Assembly (NCBI GenBank): GCA_945861935.1
Contig: CAMAVU010000009.1
Coordinates: 1-39,504, forward strand
Source of the DNA: Bifidobacterium breve
GTDB lineage: Bacteria; Actinomycetota; Thermoleophilia; Miltoncostaeales; Miltoncostaeaceae
Reading direction: 5' to 3'
DNA: 39,504 nt
Shown: positions 1 through 33,213 of the stretch, piece after piece
How positions within the stretch are numbered: position 1 is the first letter of the stretch
Layout of the letters: the number at the start of each line of letters is the position of its first letter
Translations under genes and position numbers: made by a program
The notes under the pieces: model-generated
Databases searched by the model: none
The model's input: the letters and a program-made list of their open reading frames with translations, nothing else
Told to the model about the DNA's origin: nothing

Positions 1-420
1 TTGGAGCGCTGCCACACAGCGGTCACGGCGCCTGAGGGGTCGGTGGCGATCCTGGGGTCGTAGGCGTTCTGGCCCGGGGCCGAGAGGTCGCTGGGCGCGC
101 TCCACGCGCCGGCGGCGTACCGGGAGGCCGGGATGATGTAGTGCGTGCCGTTCCAGCGCCACCACACGGCGGTCACGGCGCCTGAGGGGTCGGTGGCGAT
201 CTGGGGGTCGTAGGCGCTCCGGCCCGCGGCCGAGAGGTCGCTGGGCGCGCTCCACGCGCCGGCGGCGTACCGGGAGGCCTGGATGATGTAGTGCGTGCCG
301 TTGGAGCGCTGCCACACGGCGGTCACGGCGCCTGAGGGGTCGGTGGCGATCTGGGGGGCGTTGGCGTTCTGGCCCGCGGCCGAGAGGTCGCTCGGCGGGG
401 TGGCCCACACCCCGGCGAGC
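1..420 (-). repeat. 150-bp tandem repeat inside the edge gene
   Basis: Units 1-150, 151-300 and 301-420 (the last partial, nearest the signal peptide) are almost identical at the DNA level. For example CGGTCACGGCGCCTGAGGGG recurs at offset 20 in each. The period is exactly 50 codons, so the array is coding and in frame. Near-identity at synonymous sites suggests recent duplication or gene conversion. Confidence 0.9.
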
Positions 421-518
421 GCCAGGGTGCCGGGCAGGAGCAACAGTGCGCTCGCGGCGAGGAGGGCCACGGCTGCCCGGGGGATACCTGAGACTCGGGT
501 GCGCGCGGGGGGCTCCAT
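1..518 (-). CDS. secreted protein with 50-residue repeats (partial, C-terminus off the window)
   Basis: The reading frame opens at an ATG at 518-516 and stays open to the window edge, giving at least 172 residues with no stop. Residues 1-36 form a signal peptide: a basic start (MEPPARTRVSG), a hydrophobic core rich in Ala/Leu and an Ala-x-Ala-like end (LALAGVWA). The rest is a tandem 50-residue repeat with cores such as PSDLSAAG, IATDPSGAVTAVW and GTHYIIQASRYAAGAW. The spacing resembles repeat blades of secreted beta-rich proteins seen in some actinomycetes; that family link is from memory. It is divergent from ffh. A TACGGT box lies 6 bases before the start. The function and the total repeat number are unknown. 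Confidence 0.8.
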   Translation of the reverse strand, partial: MEPPARTRVSGIPRAAVALLAASALLLLPGTLALAGVWATPPSDLSAAGQNANAPQIATDPSGAVTAVWQRSNGTHYIIQASRYAAGAWSAPSDLSAAGRSAYDPQIATDPSGAVTAVWWRWNGTHYIIPASRYAAGAWSAPSDLSAPGQNAYDPRIATDPSGAVTAVWQRS

Positions 519-524
519 GGACGG

Positions 525-530
525 ACCGTA
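525..530 (-). promoter_or_regulatory. -10 box of the repeat protein
   Basis: TACGGT lies 6 bases before the ATG at 518. The spacing fits a transcript that starts at the A of ATG, with no leader. Confidence 0.5.
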
Positions 531-737
531 CACCGTCGGGCCGCCTGCCAGACCAACCCCGGGACTTTCACTGTTCGATCCCCCGGTTCCCGCGTGTGCA
601 CCGGCGGTCCGGGCGTGAGGGGATCCGTCGGCTCCCAACGGGCATGCGCGATGGGCTGGTGGGGGCCAGTCGCACGAGGCCCGATCGCTCACCCCGGCAG
701 AGGGGTGCGCAGGGCCCGATGGCCGTGCGTCCCTGTC

Positions 738-766
738 ACCGGGTGGCGCGGGGGTACCGGGTGGCG
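738..766. repeat. 11-bp direct repeat upstream of ffh
   Basis: ACCGGGTGGCG occurs at 738-748 and again at 756-766, with starts 18 bases apart. It could be an operator pair or chance in GC-rich DNA. Confidence 0.35.
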
Positions 767-911
767 TCGGCACTGCTCATGCGTCCATCTTGCCGGGGGC
801 CGGTCCGGTGGACGCGCACCTTGCCCGGGGAGGATCCACGGTCGTCGGTCATCTCCCCGGGAGGGCCTGCGATAGCCTTCACCTCTCGCGCGATCACGCG
901 CGGACTTCACC

Positions 912-2231
912 GTGTTCGACGCACTCACCGACAAGCTGCAGGGAGTCTTCTCGGGCCTCAGAGGCCGCGGGCGGCTCACCGAGGCCGACATCGAGAAGGC
1001 CATGCGGGCGATCCGCATGTCGCTGCTCGAGGCCGACGTCAGCCTGCCCGTGGTCAAGCAGCTCACGACGGCCATCAAGGAACGGGCTACCGGCGACGAG
1101 GTGATGTCGTCCATCACGCCCGATCAGCAGGTCGTGAAGATCGTGAGCGAGGAGCTCACACGCCTCATGGGCGGCACCAATACGGGCCTCGCGATGGCAT
1201 CCACGCCGCCGACTGTCATCCTGATGGCGGGGCTCCAGGGGTCGGGCAAGACCACGCACACGGCCAAACTCGCACGCCTTCTGACATCGGAGGGGCGTTC
1301 TCCCCTGATGGTGGCCTGCGACGTTCACCGACCGGCCGCGATGGAACAACTCGCGGTGCTGGGCGAGCAGGTGGGCGTGCCCGTGCACCGCGACGAGGGC
1401 GCTACCGATCCGGTCGCGGTCGCGCGCGCGGGAATTGCGGCTGCGAAGCGCGCCGGGCGGGACGTGGTGCTGGTGGACACCGCGGGACGGCTCACGATCG
1501 ATGCCGCGATGATGGGTGAACTCGTGGCCATCCGCGACGCAGTGAAGCCGACCTCGGTCATTCTGGTGGTGGATGCCATGACGGGCCAGACGGCCGTGGA
1601 CGTGGCCGTGGCCTTCCAGGAGGCGGTGCAGTTCGACGGCGTGATCCTGAGCAAGATGGACGGCGATGCCCGCGGCGGGGCGGCGCTGTCGGTGCGTGCG
1701 GTCACCGGCACGCCGATCCTGTTCGTGGGCACGGGCGAGAAGGTGGATGCCCTCGAAGCCTTCCATCCCGACCGCATGGCCTCGCGAATTCTGGGGATGG
1801 GAGACGTACTCACCCTCATCGAGAAGGCCCAGCAGAACGTCAACGAGGCCGACGCCCGGCGCATCGAGGAGAAGATGCGCGGTGGCAACCTGACGCTGGA
1901 CGACTTCCGGGACCAACTCCGGCAGGTACGGAAGATGGGTCCGATCGGTCAGGTGATGGGCATGATCCCCGGACTCGGCCAGGCCGGGAAGTTGAAGGAC
2001 GTGCAGGTGGACGAGAGGCGCATCGATCGCATCGAGGCCATCATCAGCAGCATGACCTTGTCCGAACGGGCCCGGCCCGACATCATCAACGGCAGCCGTC
2101 GGCGCCGGATTGCGCAGGGAAGTGGCACCACGGTTCAGGAGATCAATCAACTCCTGGCTCAGTTCAAGCAGATGCAGAGGCTCATGAAGCGCATGGGCAA
2201 GGGCGGGCTTCCGTCCATGCTCGGCGCCTGA
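912..2231 (+). CDS. ffh: signal recognition particle GTPase Ffh
   Basis: Ffh binds signal peptides of nascent chains and, with 4.5S RNA and FtsY, delivers ribosomes to the membrane. The 439-residue length is typical. The N domain covers about residues 1-85. The G domain shows the P-loop GLQGSGKTT (107-115), DVHRPAA (137-143), DTAGR (189-193) and SKMDG (247-251). The methionine-rich M domain follows, with [10 protein letters not shown] and the RNA-binding [12 protein letters not shown]. Start is GTG at 912, where the N domain begins; no clear ribosome binding site precedes it. A TAGCCT box at 873-878 would give a short leader. It heads the block that continues with rpsP 23 bases downstream, a classic ffh-rpsP-khpA-rimM-trmD-rplS order. 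Confidence 0.97.
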
Positions 2232-2254
2232 CACCGAATCCGAGTAGGAGCACA

Positions 2255-2497
2255 GTGGTCAAGATCCGCCTTGCCCGAGTGGGCAGCAAGAAGAACCCGA
2301 TCTACCGTGTGGTGGTGAGCGACTCGCGCTCGCCGCGTGACGGACGCAACATCGAGACGATCGGCCGCTACAACCCCCAGACCGATCCGTCGGTGGTGGA
2401 GGTGGACCTGGCACGCGCCGATCACTGGATCGGCAACGGCGCCCAGCCCACGGGTGCCGTGAGGAAGCTCATCTCCATCGTCCGTGCACGCGGGTGA
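2255..2497 (+). CDS. rpsP: 30S ribosomal protein S16
   Basis: S16 is an early-binding protein of the small subunit. The 80 residues match the family length. The start [15 protein letters not shown] and the central [10 protein letters not shown] are diagnostic. Start is GTG at 2255, preceded by TAGGAG at about 2244-2249. The last codons overlap the next gene by 4 bases (GTGA), so S16 and the KH protein are likely translationally coupled. Confidence 0.98.
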
Positions 2498-2742
2498 GCG
2501 AGGCCCGCGCAGCAGAGATGGTTGCTCGCATCGCCCGCGCGATGGTCGAGCACCCGGAGGAGGTCTCCACCCGGGTGGGGGAGGACCGCGGCGAGCCGGT
2601 CGTGGACCTGCTGGTGGCCGAGGGCGACCGCGGTCAGGTGATCGGGCGGGGCGGGCGCGGCGCGCACGCCCTGCGCACCCTGCTGCGGGCAGCCACGGGG
2701 CCGCGCAGCAAGGGCGGCCTCGGGCTGAGGATCGTCGACTAG
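2494..2742 (+). CDS. khpA: KH-domain RNA-binding protein KhpA
   Basis: This small KH protein of 82 residues belongs to the KhpA/YlqC family, which binds RNA and in Gram-positive bacteria pairs with KhpB (Jag). The GxxG loop is seen in [16 protein letters not shown]. The GTG start at 2494 overlaps the rpsP stop. The position between rpsP and rimM is the standard one. The next gene starts 4 bases after the stop. Confidence 0.93.
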
Positions 2743-2746
2743 TCGC

Positions 2747-3253
2747 ATGCCGGGTCGGGGCGAGCAGGTGGCCATCGCACGCCTGGGCCGTCCCCACGGC
2801 CTCCGCGGGGCCATCACGGCCCACGCCGACGGCCCGACGATCGGAACGCTCGGGGAAGGCGACGTCGTGATCGTGCGCCAGACCGGTACCGATCGTGAGA
2901 TGATCCTTTCCGAGCGCACCGGCGGGGCACCCCGTGCGATCGTCGCGTTCCGCGGCATCACGACCCGCGAGGACGTCGCGCGTTTTACCGGTGGCTCCGT
3001 GATGGTGGATGTTGAGCGCCTGCCCCCCGTGGACGACCCCGACACGTTCTACGTACGGGACATCCTCGGCTTCGAGGTGCGCGACGGCGACACCGTGGTG
3101 GGCTCGGTGAGCGATGTGCGTTCGGGTCGCTCGAACGATGTCCTGGTGGTCCAGGGGGAGACGGGCGAAATCCTCCTGCCGTTTACGCGGGATGCCGTCG
3201 TCGTCGTTGACACCGCCACGCGCTCTCTGGTGCTGCGGAAGGGCCTCCTGTGA
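2747..3253 (+). CDS. rimM: ribosome maturation factor RimM
   Basis: RimM is a 16S rRNA processing and 30S maturation factor that binds S19. Its 168 residues are the usual size. The N-terminal RimM domain has IARLGRPHGLRGAI (about 9-22). The C-terminal PRC barrel begins near DTFYVRDILGFEV and ends at LPFTRDAVVVVD. The ATG is 4 bases after khpA. The end overlaps trmD by 4 bases (GTGA). Coupling with trmD is usual in bacteria. Confidence 0.95.
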   Translation: MPGRGEQVAIARLGRPHGLRGAITAHADGPTIGTLGEGDVVIVRQTGTDREMILSERTGGAPRAIVAFRGITTREDVARFTGGSVMVDVERLPPVDDPDTFYVRDILGFEVRDGDTVVGSVSDVRSGRSNDVLVVQGETGEILLPFTRDAVVVVDTATRSLVLRKGLL

Positions 3254-3960
3254 CCGTCGATGTGATCACCTTGTTCCCGGAGTGGTTCGACTGGATGCGT
3301 CGCCCCCGGCACCTCACCAACGCGGCTGAGATCAGCGGGCTCGACATCCGCTGCTTCAACCCGCGCGACCACACGCCGTTGGGTCAGGGGCAGGTGGACG
3401 ACTCCCCCTATGGCGGCGGGCCGGGCATGGTGCTGCGCGTGGACGTCATCGCCGCGGCGATGGAGGCCATCTACGGCATGCCGGCCGAGCGGGTGCGCGA
3501 TACCCGGCGGGTCGTCGTGCTGTCCCCCCGCGGGCGTCCGTTCACCGACACGATCGCCCGCGACTTCGCGGCACTGCCCGGCATCACGCTGCTCTCCGGG
3601 CGCTACGAGGGGCTCGACGAGAGGGTCCATGAGCATCTGGCGAACGACTGCGTGAGCCTTGGGCCGTTCGTGCTCGCAGGCGGTGAGGTCGCGGCCATGG
3701 CGATGATCGACGCCATGGCCCGGCGCCTGCCGGGCGCACTGGGCAACGCGGAGAGCCTCCACCGGGAGTCGTTCTCGCCCGGGCTCGAGGGCCGCGTCGA
3801 ACACCCGCACTACACACGTCCGGCGGAGTTCCGGGGGTGGGGTGTGCCACCCGTACTCCTGTCCGGAGACCATGGCGCCATCGAGGACTGGCGCCGGTCG
3901 CAGGTACGCGCTGCACCCCGGGCAGGGACGGTGGTATTGTCGCCGCCGCTGTCACCCTAG
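3250..3960 (+). CDS. trmD: tRNA (guanine-37-N1) methyltransferase TrmD
   Basis: TrmD makes m1G37 in tRNAs, preventing frameshifting, using S-adenosylmethionine bound in a trefoil knot. Visible motifs are [11 protein letters not shown] at the start, [11 protein letters not shown] (about 54-64), [35 protein letters not shown] and [10 protein letters not shown]. Two oddities stand out. The segment usually read as DSF before the HYTRP motif is ESF here, so the residue thought to be the catalytic Asp is Glu. The C-terminus after WRRSQ is shortened and unlike the family. The start GTG overlaps rimM. The stop TAG is part of the rplS ribosome binding site. Confidence 0.95.
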
Positions 3961-3974
3961 GAGGACACCCAAGC

Positions 3975-4409
3975 ATGACCGTCATCGAGGACTTGGAGCG
4001 GATGCAGATCCGCGACGACATCCCGGTATTCCGCCCGGGGGACACCGTGCGCGTGCATTTCCAGGTCATCGAGGGCCAGCGCCGCCGCGTGCAGGTCTTC
4101 GAGGGCACGGTCATCAAGCGTCAGGGATCCACCGCGCGCGAGACCTTCACGGTGCGCAAGCAGAGCTTCGGGGTAGGCGTGGAGCGCACGTTCCCGGTGC
4201 ACTCGCCGAAGATCGAGAAGATCGAGCGCACCCTTGAGGGTGACGTCCGCCGCGCCAAGCTGTACTACCTGCGCGATCGCGTGGGCAAGAAGGCGCGTGT
4301 GCGGGAGAAGGCCACGTGGATGTCGCAGCGCAAGGCACCCGCACAGGTCGTCGCACCGCAGGTCGAGGCCGTCACGGTCGAGCCGGTGGAGACCCCCGCC
4401 GGGGAGTAG
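3975..4409 (+). CDS. rplS: 50S ribosomal protein L19
   Basis: L19 sits at the interface of the two ribosomal subunits. The core has [32 protein letters not shown] and [20 protein letters not shown]. At 144 residues it is longer than the usual 115-120. The extra is a C-terminal tail after ARVREKATW rich in Ala, Pro, Val and Glu. I chose the ATG at 3975 because AGGAGG (about 3959-3964) sits ideally before it; the frame is open further upstream. A stem-loop overlaps the stop codon. Confidence 0.96.
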
Positions 4410-4418
4410 TCGGCGGGG
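4394..4418 (+). terminator. stem-loop over the rplS stop codon
   Basis: CCCCGCCG (4394-4401) can pair with CGGCGGGG (4411-4418) around a nine-base loop that includes the stop. There is no T-run after it, so it is a possible high-GC terminator or attenuator rather than a canonical intrinsic one. Confidence 0.5.
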
Positions 4419-4516
4419 TGGTTCCCGGGGTCCGTGGGGTTGCCCGCGACCCGGACTCCATGCGTGCGTGCGACGCCCTCGGCCGTGGGGTTCCCCGGTG
4501 CGACCGGGCGCGCGGG

Positions 4517-4522
4517 TAGCGT
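4517..4522 (+). promoter_or_regulatory. -10 box of rnhB
   Basis: TAGCGT lies 7 bases before the ATG at 4530. This fits a leaderless transcript and supports 4530 as the start rather than the in-frame GTG at 4521. Confidence 0.5.
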
Positions 4523-4529
4523 GGCGCGG

Positions 4530-5186
4530 ATGGTCCTGAACCCCGGTATCCCGCCTCTGATCGCGCACGACATGGCGCTGGGCCTCGCGCTGGTGGCGGG
4601 GGCCGACGAGGCCGGACGGGGGTGTCTGGCCGGACCCATCGTGGCGGCGGCGGTGTGCCTGGACATGACTGCGCTCGATTCGTCCGCGCTCGATGCCCTG
4701 CGCGGCCTCGACGACTCGAAGCGGCTCACCGCGCGCCGCCGGGCTGCTCTCGTCCCTGCGATCCTGCGGATCGCGCACCAGGTCGTGGTGGTGTCGGCGC
4801 CGCCGCGGGCCATCGACACGGACGGCCTGCACGCGACCAATCTCCGCATCATCCGGCGCGCGCTGGCCATGCTTGATCCCGTGCCCGGGATCGCGCTCGT
4901 GGACGGGTTCGCCCTCGGCGACGACGCGCCCCCGCACCGGCAGGTGGTCAGAGGCGACTCGACGAGCGCGGCCATCGCGGCGGCGTCGGTGATCGCCAAA
5001 GAGACCCGCGACCGCCTGATGCGCGGGCCGGCCGCGGCGGCATATGGGGACTACGGGTTCGAGCGCCATGTGGGGTACATCACGGCTGAGCATTCGGAGG
5101 CGGTGCGGACATGGGGCCCCACGCCGCTGCATCGCCGGTCGTTCCGCACGGCCGCGTATGGCGGGGACCCGACGCTGTTCGCCTAG
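4530..5186 (+). CDS. rnhB: ribonuclease HII
   Basis: RNase HII cuts the RNA strand of RNA-DNA hybrids and removes misincorporated ribonucleotides. The acidic active-site motif [19 protein letters not shown] begins near residue 17. [11 protein letters not shown] and [12 protein letters not shown] follow. 218 residues is the family length. The frame is open back to 4434; I prefer the ATG at 4530 because of the -10 box 7 bases before it, with GTG 4521 as the alternative. The stop shares the four bases CTAG with the stop of the convergent yraN. Confidence 0.94.
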
Positions 5187-29447: not shown

Positions 29448-31295
29448 ATGAGTTCCTCCCGCCCCCTCCGCCGCATGGTGCTCTCGACTGCCGCCGCGAT
29501 CTGTGCCCTTGCGATCTCCGCAGCACCCGCCCTCTCCGTGAAGGCCCCCACCCCGGTGAAGGCGCCGCTCGTCAGCGGGGTGGTGCAGGTGGGATCGATT
29601 CTGACCGCTTCCCCCGGTACCTGGCGTCCGAAGCCTGCATCGGTCTCCTACCGGTGGGAGGCCGAGCGCACCGTCACTGTCACCACCAAGACGACCGTCA
29701 AGGGCAAGGTGCGTGTTATCCGCAAGGCGGTCCTGCGCTGGCAGGCCATCCCCGGTGCCAGCGCATCCACCCTCACCCCGGTTGCCTCCCTTCAGGGGCT
29801 GAGGCTGCGCGCCTGCGCGCAGGCGGCCAAGGGTGGCCAGCGCTCGGACTGGCGCTGTTCGGCAGCCAGCGGGCCGGTTGCGGCACCCACTCCCACTCCT
29901 TCACCACCCGCATCCGTGGCGATTTCCTATGCCGAGACCGTGTTCGCCGTGGGTATGGATGCCCAGAGGTTCTTACCTACCATCACCGGTGCTCAGGGCA
30001 CCCAGACCTTTTCGGTGCAGGGCACCCTGCCTGAGGGCGTCACCTTCAGCGAGGCCACCGGTGCATTCTTCGGGCCCGCCTTCTCGGATTGGACCGTCCG
30101 GGCGACGCAGGTCAGCGCGGGCGGCGCCCACACCTGTGCCCTCACCACCGGGGGCGCGGTGAAGTGCTGGGGGGATGACAACTGGGGCCAGATCGGCGAC
30201 GCCGGCTCCAACGCCCGTCAGTCCTCCCCGGCGGACGTCGTGGGCCTGGGCAACGGGACGGCGACGCAGGTGAGCGCGGGCTCCTCCCACACCTGTGCCG
30301 TCACCACGCAGGGCGCGGTGAAGTGCTGGGGGGATGACGACTTCGGCCAGATCGGAAACGGCGCCACCACGGGCAACCAGACATCCCCCGTGCCCGTCGA
30401 GGGCCTCAGCAGCGGCGTGGCACAGGTGAGCGCAGGCAACTACCACACCTGCGCCCTCACCACGCAGGGCGCGGTGAAGTGCTGGGGGTATGACGGCAGC
30501 GGCCAGATCGGAAACGGTGCCACCATCACCACCACCCAGACATCCCCCGTGCCCGTCGATGGCCTCAGCAGCGGTGTGGCGCAGGTGAGCGCCGGCGGCA
30601 ACCACACCTGTGCCCTCACCACGCAGGGCGCGGTGAAGTGCTGGGGGGCTAACTACGACGGGCAGATCGGCGACGGCGGGGCCAATGTCGATCAGACCTC
30701 CCCGCTGCCCGTGCCGGGCCTGGGTAATGGGACGGCGACGCAAGTGAGCGCGGGTAGCGGTCATACCTGCGCCGTCACTACGCAGGGCGCGGTGAAGTGC
30801 TGGGGGAATGACGACTACGGCCAGATCGGCAACGGCGGCTCCAATGCCGCTCGACCCTCTCCGGAGCCCGTGCAGGCCCTGGGAAACGGGACCGTGACCC
30901 AGGTGAGCGCAGGAAGCCTCCACACCTGCGCCCTCACCACGCAGGGCGCGGTGAAGTGCTGGGGGGATGACCGCTACAGCCAGATCGGCGACGGCGGGGT
31001 CGCGGGGCAACCTCGGACCACTCCGGTGGCCGTGGTGGGCCTCACCGACGGCGTGGCGCAGGTGAGCGCAGGCGGCCTCCACACCTGTGCCCTCACCACG
31101 CAGGGCGCGGTGAAGTGCTGGGGGTCTGACTCGTCCGGCCAGATCGGCGACGTCGGTTCCTACACTGATCAGCACTCCCCCGTGCAGGTGAGAGGTCTCC
31201 AGCCCCAGGCGGGCTTCCCCGCCGCGCTGCGCGTGGTCGTGACCGACAGCCGCGGGGTTGCGGGGTCGGTGGACATCATCCTCGGTACGTTCTGA
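29448..31295 (+). CDS. secreted RCC1-repeat protein with Ig-like domains (paralogue 1)
   Basis: 615 residues. A signal peptide occupies about 1-30 (MVLSTAAAICALAISAAPAL). Next is an Ig-like domain (PLVSGVVQVGSILTASPGTW ... AVLRWQAIPGASASTLTPV), a short Pro/Thr linker, then the first half of a putative-Ig fold (ISYAETVFAVG ... LPEGVTFSEATGAFFGP). Seven RCC1 units of 53 residues follow, each with HTCALTTQGAVKCWG and GQIG. The last strands of the interrupted Ig fold come at the end (LRVVVTDSRGVAGSVDIILG). So the propeller is inserted in the Ig domain. Each unit has two Cys. The role is unknown, probably surface binding. Its stop TGA is intact, unlike paralogue 2. Confidence 0.88.
   Translation: MSSSRPLRRMVLSTAAAICALAISAAPALSVKAPTPVKAPLVSGVVQVGSILTASPGTWRPKPASVSYRWEAERTVTVTTKTTVKGKVRVIRKAVLRWQAIPGASASTLTPVASLQGLRLRACAQAAKGGQRSDWRCSAASGPVAAPTPTPSPPASVAISYAETVFAVGMDAQRFLPTITGAQGTQTFSVQGTLPEGVTFSEATGAFFGPAFSDWTVRATQVSAGGAHTCALTTGGAVKCWGDDNWGQIGDAGSNARQSSPADVVGLGNGTATQVSAGSSHTCAVTTQGAVKCWGDDDFGQIGNGATTGNQTSPVPVEGLSSGVAQVSAGNYHTCALTTQGAVKCWGYDGSGQIGNGATITTTQTSPVPVDGLSSGVAQVSAGGNHTCALTTQGAVKCWGANYDGQIGDGGANVDQTSPLPVPGLGNGTATQVSAGSGHTCAVTTQGAVKCWGNDDYGQIGNGGSNAARPSPEPVQALGNGTVTQVSAGSLHTCALTTQGAVKCWGDDRYSQIGDGGVAGQPRTTPVAVVGLTDGVAQVSAGGLHTCALTTQGAVKCWGSDSSGQIGDVGSYTDQHSPVQVRGLQPQAGFPAALRVVVTDSRGVAGSVDIILGTF
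30105..31199 (+). repeat. seven 159-bp RCC1 coding repeats
   Basis: Units begin at 30105, 30264, 30420, 30579, 30738, 30897 and 31056; the periods are 159 bases except one of 156. A 26-base core (ACGCAGGGCGCGGTGAAGTG plus CTGGGG) is identical in units 2-7, including third-codon positions, while the four or five codons just after it vary strongly. Confidence 0.92.
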
Positions 31296-31617
31296 CAGCA
31301 CCCCCTGGGGGGTCGGCGATCGCATCGCCCATCTCGCGGGGAGGCCCATGGCGTTCGGCCACGCCCTCGAGGTGGTGGCCCAGAGGGCTTCGGCGTTGGT
31401 GGCCCGGGGAGCGTTTGGCACTCACACCCCAACGAGGTCAGGCGCCCATCTGGCCTCGTGACACGTGGGCGATCGATGGTACCGCCCGGATGACCCGCCC
31501 CAGAGCAGGGGACATTCCGGCTGGGAAAGGGTGGTGGGGCAGATTGCGTGGGCACTGGGGTCGCAGCCGCTCCCCGCGTCCGAGCGGGCACATGCCCGCC
31601 CCCTGCCCGCCCGGGAC

Positions 31618-31643
31618 CCGCCCCACCCGACAGGGTGGGGCGG
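31618..31643 (+). promoter_or_regulatory. 11-bp hairpin upstream of RCC1 paralogue 2
   Basis: CCGCCCCACCC (31618-31628), loop GACA, GGGTGGGGCGG (31633-31643). It overlaps the start of the shared CGGACCTGCTA element. It is absent upstream of paralogue 1, so it may be an operator or a terminator specific to this copy. Confidence 0.55.
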
Positions 31644-31655
31644 ACCTGCTAGAAA
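31641..31655 (+). promoter_or_regulatory. shared promoter-like element of RCC1 paralogue 2
   Basis: CGGACCTGCTA followed by GAAA. TAGAAA (31650-31655) lies 7 bases before ATG 31663, the same geometry as in paralogue 1. Confidence 0.4.
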
Positions 31656-31662
31656 CGCATCC

Positions 31663-33213
31663 ATGGGTTCCTCCTCTGCGGGGTCCTTCCATTCCGTCCG
31701 CCATGTGGTGCTCGCAATCGCCGCCGCGATCTGTGCCCTCGCAGCCGCCGCAGCACCCGGCATCGCCGCGAAGGCCCCCACCCCGGTAAAGCGCCCGCTC
31801 GTCAGCGGGGTGGTGCAGGTGGGATCGGCGCTCTCTGCCTCTCCCGGAACCTGGCGTCCGAAGTCTGTACGGGTCTCCTACCGCTGGGAGGCCCAGCGCA
31901 GCGTCACCGTCACCACGAAGAAGACCGTCAAGGGCAAGGTGCGTGTTACCCGCAAGGCGGTCCTGCGCTGGAGGGCGATCCCCGGTGCCAGGGCATCCAC
32001 CCTCACCCCGGCCGCCTCCCTCCAGGGGCTGAGGCTGCGCGCCTGCGTGAGGGCGGTCAGGGGTGGCCGGCGCTCGAAATGGAGCTGCTCGAGGCAGAGC
32101 GGGGTGGTTGCTGCCCCCACCCCCACGCCACCCGCAACCGTGGCGATCTCCTACGCCCAGACCGCCTTCGTTGTGGGTCAGAACGCCCAGGTGCTCTCAC
32201 CCACCATCACCGGCGCTCAGGGCGCCCAGACCTTCTCGGTTCAGGGCACCCTGCCTGAGGGCGTCCCCTTCAATGCGGCCACCGGCGCCTTCACCGGGCC
32301 TGCCGCCTCCGCGTGGAACTTCCGCGCGACGCAGGTGAGCGCGGGCTGGGGCCACACATGCGCGCTCACCACGCAGGGCGCGGCGAAGTGCTGGGGAAAT
32401 GACGACTTCGGCCAGATCGGAAACGGCGGGGCCAATACCAACCAGTCCACCGCCGTGCAGGTAAGTGGCTTCCATCCCCAGCCGGGCTTCCCCGCCTCGC
32501 TGCGTGTGAGCGTGACCGACAGCCGCGGGGTTGCGGGGTGGGTGGACGTGCTCCTGGGGACGTTCGAGCAGCACCCCTGTGTGATCGGGGCCGGCGAGTC
32601 ATCGCCGCCGTCGGGGGCGTCCATCGAAGCGGGGGAATGGGCAGGTCCTGCTCAGAACTCCTCGGGTAGGACTCGAACCTACAACCCTCCGGTTAACAGC
32701 CGGATGCTCTACCAATTGAGCTACCGAGGACCGCGGGCGGGGAGTCTAGATCACGACCGGCTTGTGATGATGCCCCGGTGGCGGGGTGAACGAGTGCACG
32801 TGGACGATCGGCCCGGTCTCGTCAATGCGGCCCGGCACCGGCAGGTCGTCCCGCCTGTGGGTCCAGCCCGCACGCTGCATGGCGTCCACGAATGGCCGGG
32901 CGTCCGGGCGCCGGGGATCGGCGATGATCACGCGGGTCGCGGGTCCGCACAGGGCGGGGATGAGCGCCCCGAGCGCCACGCCGTTCCGGCCCTCGTAGAG
33001 GATGTCGGCACCGACGATCAAGTCGAAGGGGGCCCGGTCGAGGACCGCGGGCGGGGGGTCACGCCAGTCCATCACCTCGGCGTCCATGTGCAGGCCGAGG
33101 TTGCGGGCGTTCCACCGGGCAAACCCCACCGCCTCCGGGTACCAGTCGGTGGCCAGCGCTGTGGCCCCGCGCGTGGCGGCAACCATGGCCCCCGTCCCGA
33201 TGCCGGCCCCTAG
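31663..33213 (+). CDS. secreted RCC1/Ig protein, paralogue 2, with stop-loss extension
   Basis: A paralogue of the 29448-31295 protein: the same signal peptide, the same first Ig-like domain (PLVSGVVQVGSALSASPGTW), the same half Ig fold, but only one RCC1 unit (HTCALTTQGAAKCWG at about 32352-32396) before the closing strands (LRVSVTDSRGVAGWVDVLLG). In paralogue 1 the sequence after LGTF is TGA CAG CAC CCC; here it is GAG CAG CAC CCC, so the stop is lost. The frame then runs 215 more residues, from 32566 to 33213, antisense to tRNA-Asn and most of the methyltransferase gene. That tail is Arg/Gly/His-rich and has no homology I can see; the true protein likely should end near 32565. Confidence 0.7.
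   Translation: MGSSSAGSFHSVRHVVLAIAAAICALAAAAAPGIAAKAPTPVKRPLVSGVVQVGSALSASPGTWRPKSVRVSYRWEAQRSVTVTTKKTVKGKVRVTRKAVLRWRAIPGARASTLTPAASLQGLRLRACVRAVRGGRRSKWSCSRQSGVVAAPTPTPPATVAISYAQTAFVVGQNAQVLSPTITGAQGAQTFSVQGTLPEGVPFNAATGAFTGPAASAWNFRATQVSAGWGHTCALTTQGAAKCWGNDDFGQIGNGGANTNQSTAVQVSGFHPQPGFPASLRVSVTDSRGVAGWVDVLLGTFEQHPCVIGAGESSPPSGASIEAGEWAGPAQNSSGRTRTYNPPVNSRMLYQLSYRGPRAGSLDHDRLVMMPRWRGERVHVDDRPGLVNAARHRQVVPPVGPARTLHGVHEWPGVRAPGIGDDHAGRGSAQGGDERPERHAVPALVEDVGTDDQVEGGPVEDRGRGVTPVHHLGVHVQAEVAGVPPGKPHRLRVPVGGQRCGPARGGNHGPRPDAGP
32658..32730 (-). tRNA. tRNA-Asn (anticodon GTT)
   Basis: On the minus strand a full cloverleaf is read from TCCTCGG at 32730 to 32658. The acceptor stem TCCTCGG pairs with CCGAGGA, the D arm is GCTCAATTGGTAGAGC, the anticodon arm is CCGGCTGTTAACCGG with GTT, and the T arm contains GGTTCGAGTCC. 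The discriminator is G, as expected for Asn. No CCA is encoded (TTC follows), so the tail must be added after transcription. Its 3' end faces the RCC1 paralogues. Confidence 0.95.

Follow-up and report, generated by a model that had tools for sequence, protein, structure and literature searches.

UVR8, the HERC RLDs and RCC1 each arrange seven RCC1 blades in a closed ring; they are intracellular or nuclear proteins, and their propellers are not known to be nested in an Ig domain. To our knowledge, no Ig-like domain is nested with the propeller of BLIP-II either. BLIP-II belongs to the RCC1/BLIP-II group and is a secreted bacterial binding protein (PMC9218822). The window analyzed here, a stretch of 39,504 nt from contig CAMAVU010000009.1, carries two adjacent paralogues in which RCC1 units are found within an Ig-like domain of the He_PIG family (PF05345). 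The locus probably encodes a nested module, in which a seven-bladed RCC1 propeller, fixed at seven blades, lies inside the He_PIG sandwich of a predicted secreted protein. Searches of an incomplete literature library found no description of a propeller nested in an Ig domain.

Paralogue 1 (C9a; 29448..31295, forward strand; ORF and Pfam) starts with ATG at 29448 and encodes 615 amino acids followed by the stop codon TGA (31293-31295). Its N-terminus, MSSSRPLRRMVLSTAAAICALAISAAPALS (29448..29537), looks by eye like a signal peptide. The N-terminal region that follows (29538..29915) was called a first Ig-like domain in the initial annotation; a Pfam search of this region returned no significant match, and nearly all of it has a pLDDT of <50 in the AlphaFold model. 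The He_PIG front part (residues 157-217; 29916..30098; Pfam and family HMM) is followed by seven RCC1 units (30099..31211), recognized by Pfam, DNA repeats, a custom HMM and the model, and then by the He_PIG back strands GFPAALRVVVTDSRGVAGSVDIILGTF (31212..31292), with the stop codon immediately after. The units start at 30108, 30267, 30423, 30582, 30741, 30900 and 31059, with start-to-start spacings of 159, 156, 159, 159, 159 and 159 nt, and the DNA repeats give the same register as Pfam. PF00415 matches seven stretches with 179.3 bits (cut-off, 21.7), and WD40_RLD scores 263.3 bits (cut-off, 150). Genes near the paralogues encode a polysaccharide deacetylase, a LytR_C protein, a PEP-mutase family member, a methyltransferase, an M3 peptidase and a PHP protein, and no clear functional link was found between the paralogues and these neighbors.

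The homologous part of paralogue 2 (C9b; 31663..32565, forward strand) spans 301 amino acids, and alignment shows that the signal-peptide-like start and the N-terminal region are common to both paralogues. It comprises a He_PIG front part (32140..32322; Pfam and custom HMM), a single RCC1 unit (32323..32484; Pfam and HMM) and He_PIG back strands (32485..32565; HMM, back-strand profile and model). The single unit scores 41.7 bits with RCC1_2 (cut-off, 22) and 15.7 bits, under the cut-off of 21.7, with PF00415, and it is modelled with a pLDDT of <40, as if disordered. The copy numbers of seven and one and the identical insertion point reported in the initial annotation were thus both borne out; its span of 29448-32565 holds for the paralogue starts and the homologous parts but not for a gene end at 32565, where there is no stop codon. 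All seven other genus proteins with a known end have a stop after the tail. Since paralogue 2 lacks it, the frame continues as a read-through extension (32566..33213, forward strand) across the tRNA-Asn (gtt) gene (32658..32730, reverse strand) and runs antisense to that gene and a methyltransferase gene. The dN/dS ratio between the N-terminal parts of the two paralogues is ~0.6, which indicates loose constraint only.

In the AlphaFold model of paralogue 1, the RCC1 stretch has a pLDDT of ~90, and the seven units are predicted to form a closed seven-bladed ring. Residues 185-558 of the model match residues 13-381 of UVR8 with a Z score of 57.8 and an rmsd of 1.6; Z scores range from 44 to 58 across UVR8, the HERC RLDs and RCC1, and the sequence match with UVR8 spans the whole core. 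The RCC1-family propeller of BLIP-II, a secreted protein that binds class A beta-lactamases as their inhibitor, matches with a Z score of ~31, which is a likeness of fold only.

In both proteins, the He_PIG match in Pfam covers only profile positions 5-64 (8-65) of 96 and ends just before the RCC1 units. As encoded, the two domains score 17.7 and 17.9 bits, below the cut-off of 24; with the RCC1 stretch excised, they score 27.1 and 25.8 bits, above it, and 9 of the 10 family members exceed the cut-off in this way. After excision, the module aligns colinearly with uninterrupted He_PIG domains. Fused halves outscore shuffled-tail controls on the Pfam He_PIG profile in all 10 modules (mean, approximately +4.6 bits), and the match extends to profile positions 80-94 in nine of them; against the front part by itself, the mean gain falls to ~2.5 bits, with none or a slight loss in 2 of 10. 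A back-strand profile was also built from uninterrupted He_PIG domains (n = 28), most of them on viral contigs. On this profile, every half C-terminal to the RCC1 units (C-half) scores above its own shuffled versions in at least 496 of 500 cases, and in a 1,649-aa genus protein the three C-halves are the top three matches; in paralogue 1 the tail ranks second, not first. Seven of eight genus proteins terminate at residue 27 of their last C-half. Judged from these matches and alignments, the order is always front part, RCC1 units and back strands, with the same insertion point.

The paralogue 2 module is modelled as a beta-sandwich. Most of its structural matches are Ig, cadherin and Rib domains, and they run through both halves, from about residue 1 to 149; with 3ff7_A, 86 of 97 residues match over model residues 8-149. 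The best Z score is 6.4, and values of <8 may reflect merely a common arrangement; the mean pLDDT is 58.5, with 72-84 over most of the front and 60-73 in the tail. Foldseek returned no match under an E value of 0.001 for this model. Its alignment held no He_PIG back strands beyond those of the two paralogues. Whole phage He_PIG domains could not be aligned across the insertion with MAFFT, and therefore these domains were represented by their front parts only in the alignment of the second model. The Ig halves of paralogue 1 are modelled with a pLDDT of only ~62-78. Fold matches and pLDDT, together with small alignments, suggest with modest confidence that the back strands complete the same sandwich as the front strands. 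The proposal of the initial annotation that the strands after the RCC1 units complete the interrupted Ig-like (He_PIG) domain, with the RCC1 units inside it, is thus upheld by the excision scores and the back-strand profile and, more modestly, by the paralogue 2 model, which predicts a sandwich through both halves.

Homologues with the same split Ig fold were found in 6 of 20 genus genomes and on a plasmid of Glaciihabitans sp. INWT7. With custom HMMs, genus proteins were rendered as strings of front parts (N), units (U) and tails (C). Paralogues 1 and 2 read as N7C and N1C, the proteins of C22 and C7 have a terminal N7C preceded by an earlier C, and those of G002, G014 and G018 read as N4C-N7C-N7C, N7C-N7C and N7C, respectively; the remaining genus proteins are truncated by contig ends. 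Up to three modules occur in tandem, with 1 to 2 residues from each C to the next N. The three-module protein, the 1,649-aa protein mentioned above (L043; G002:C163, positions 1-4947), carries its modules of 4, 7 and 7 units after other N-terminal domains. The split form was absent from all 22 further genomes sampled in the family, and samples of 399 genomes of the class and 396 of the phylum yielded no other case. Searches of viral contigs and phage records detected no relative carrying the split. RCC1 arrays in which no split Ig domain was seen occur in proteins of Chloroflexi, Myxococcales, Lysobacterales and archaea (L018-L025); in each of two adjacent Lysobacterales proteins among these (L022), 14 RCC1 units were detected, a number suggestive of two rings of seven. 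Matches on Deinococcus and Rhizobium plasmids spanned under half of the query; the Ensifer match consists of uninterrupted He_PIG domains in tandem and lacks RCC1 units. The genome of the window encodes another RCC1 protein (L017; G000:C34), a 910-aa open frame in which further repeated domains follow the RCC1 units and no He_PIG match was detected. Four contigs of this genome (L014, L015, L016 and L049) end in or beside these repeat arrays, so that any count of such genes there is provisional.

The Glaciihabitans homologue, WP_185204274.1 (L115), was found in a plasmid search and is encoded on a complete circular plasmid with a front part, seven units, a tail and a stop codon. It has the same split as paralogue 1, with 41% identity at the junction, and its tail is the best match of the back-strand profile, with 11 of 1,000 shuffles scoring as well. 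It differs in that a pilin-like N-terminus replaces the signal peptide and N-terminal region of paralogue 1; this N-terminus resembles a pilin helix, and the sole family match there is weak (GspG; E value, 0.18). Genes for an excalibur-domain protein and an M23 peptidase lie in the vicinity of this gene (L115:5419-7377). Uninterrupted He_PIG domains of Ensifer WP_205239602.1 (L123) and of the genus (L050-L052) have the same front motif, LPxGV..TG.F.G, and the same back strands, VTVTD, and lack the ~370 residues of propeller that are inserted here before the last two strands. The genus proteins L050, L051 and L052 are FG-GAP-like and provide a useful unsplit control.

The initial annotation also suggested a surface scaffold in which the unit number changes by recombination; on such a reading, recombination would alter it routinely, and seven and one unit would both be functional. 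The 7-versus-1 difference between adjacent paralogues and the four units of one G002 module would fit such a scaffold, as would the exact repeats of up to 46-58 nt common to units within an array, and differences in blade number between otherwise identical paralogues are known in other propellers (PMC9218822). Units lack positional correspondence between arrays, which is consistent with unit turnover; identity within arrays mostly equals or exceeds that between arrays, a pattern compatible with internal amplification of arrays, a process described for propellers in general (PMC9218822). However, exactly seven units are present in 8 of 10 complete genus modules and in the Glaciihabitans module. 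With 9 of 11 complete modules at seven, free change by recombination is not supported, and the number looks fixed by ring closure. Both exceptions, with one unit (paralogue 2) and four units (G002), come from draft assemblies, and low counts may be collapses because draft contigs often break in arrays; moreover, the one-unit gene has no stop codon and its unit is modelled as disordered. Routine variation in unit number is therefore rather improbable. Paralogue 2 is most likely a decaying or misassembled copy rather than a functional short form. Decay, real deletion and assembly collapse are all compatible with the assembled sequence. Misassembly of a normal seven-unit gene, by collapse or as a chimera, would compete with decay and not with the nested module, and is a possible but doubtful origin: seven other genus loci break in or beside arrays (C7, C22, C65, C48, G018b, G007 and G017) and the end of paralogue 2 is likewise aberrant, whereas the longest exact sequence common to paralogues 1 and 2 is only 33 nt and the contig continues unbroken past paralogue 2. 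Among the units of paralogue 1, no clear source of the single unit was identified.

The propeller might instead be an ordinary neighbor in a chain of domains, with the front part folding alone and the 27-residue tail packing on the propeller or forming a permuted Ig domain with the next front part. The short spacing of tandem modules leaves such a circular permutation geometrically open, and the extra strand at residues 67-74, directly after the front part in the paralogue 2 model, is also in its favor. However, single-module proteins have no C-half before the front part and nothing after the final C-half, the independent profile recognizes the C-half as He_PIG back strands, and the model matches span front and back together, which makes this arrangement unlikely. 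It is very improbable that the back strands complete the Ig sandwich of a neighboring molecule in a donor-strand-like exchange, giving fibres that bear propeller heads; an orphan front part and a 27-residue orphan tail, one at either terminus of each protein, would then be the polymerising ends.

The nested module is accordingly preferred. In this arrangement, the Ig/cadherin-like He_PIG sandwich would carry the propeller in the loop that leads into its last two strands, and the putative signal peptide would export the protein. The closely spaced Ig parts may form a stalk. The propeller would sit sideways on it, attached through two chain crossings, as a rigid head that may bind ligands as other RCC1 propellers do. 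The product would be a secreted binding protein, possibly displayed at the surface, in which an Ig stalk bears a propeller head. The last Ig strand is the gene end, which leaves no space for a C-terminal anchor; the surface role suggested for the paralogues gains some weight from the pilin-like N-terminus of the Glaciihabitans homologue. Pfam annotation misses the nested Ig domain because the split He_PIG scores below the cut-off. The module would place a beta-propeller as a cassette within another common extracellular fold, up to three times per chain, as a compact means of equipping an Ig stalk with ligand-binding heads. It also offers a testable case of ring closure setting blade number. 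The arrangement can be likened to that of integrin beta, whose Ig-like hybrid domain carries the large, ligand-binding I-like domain in a loop: in both, an Ig-like sandwich would hold a large ligand-binding domain in a loop, although the inserted domains and the proteins are unrelated.
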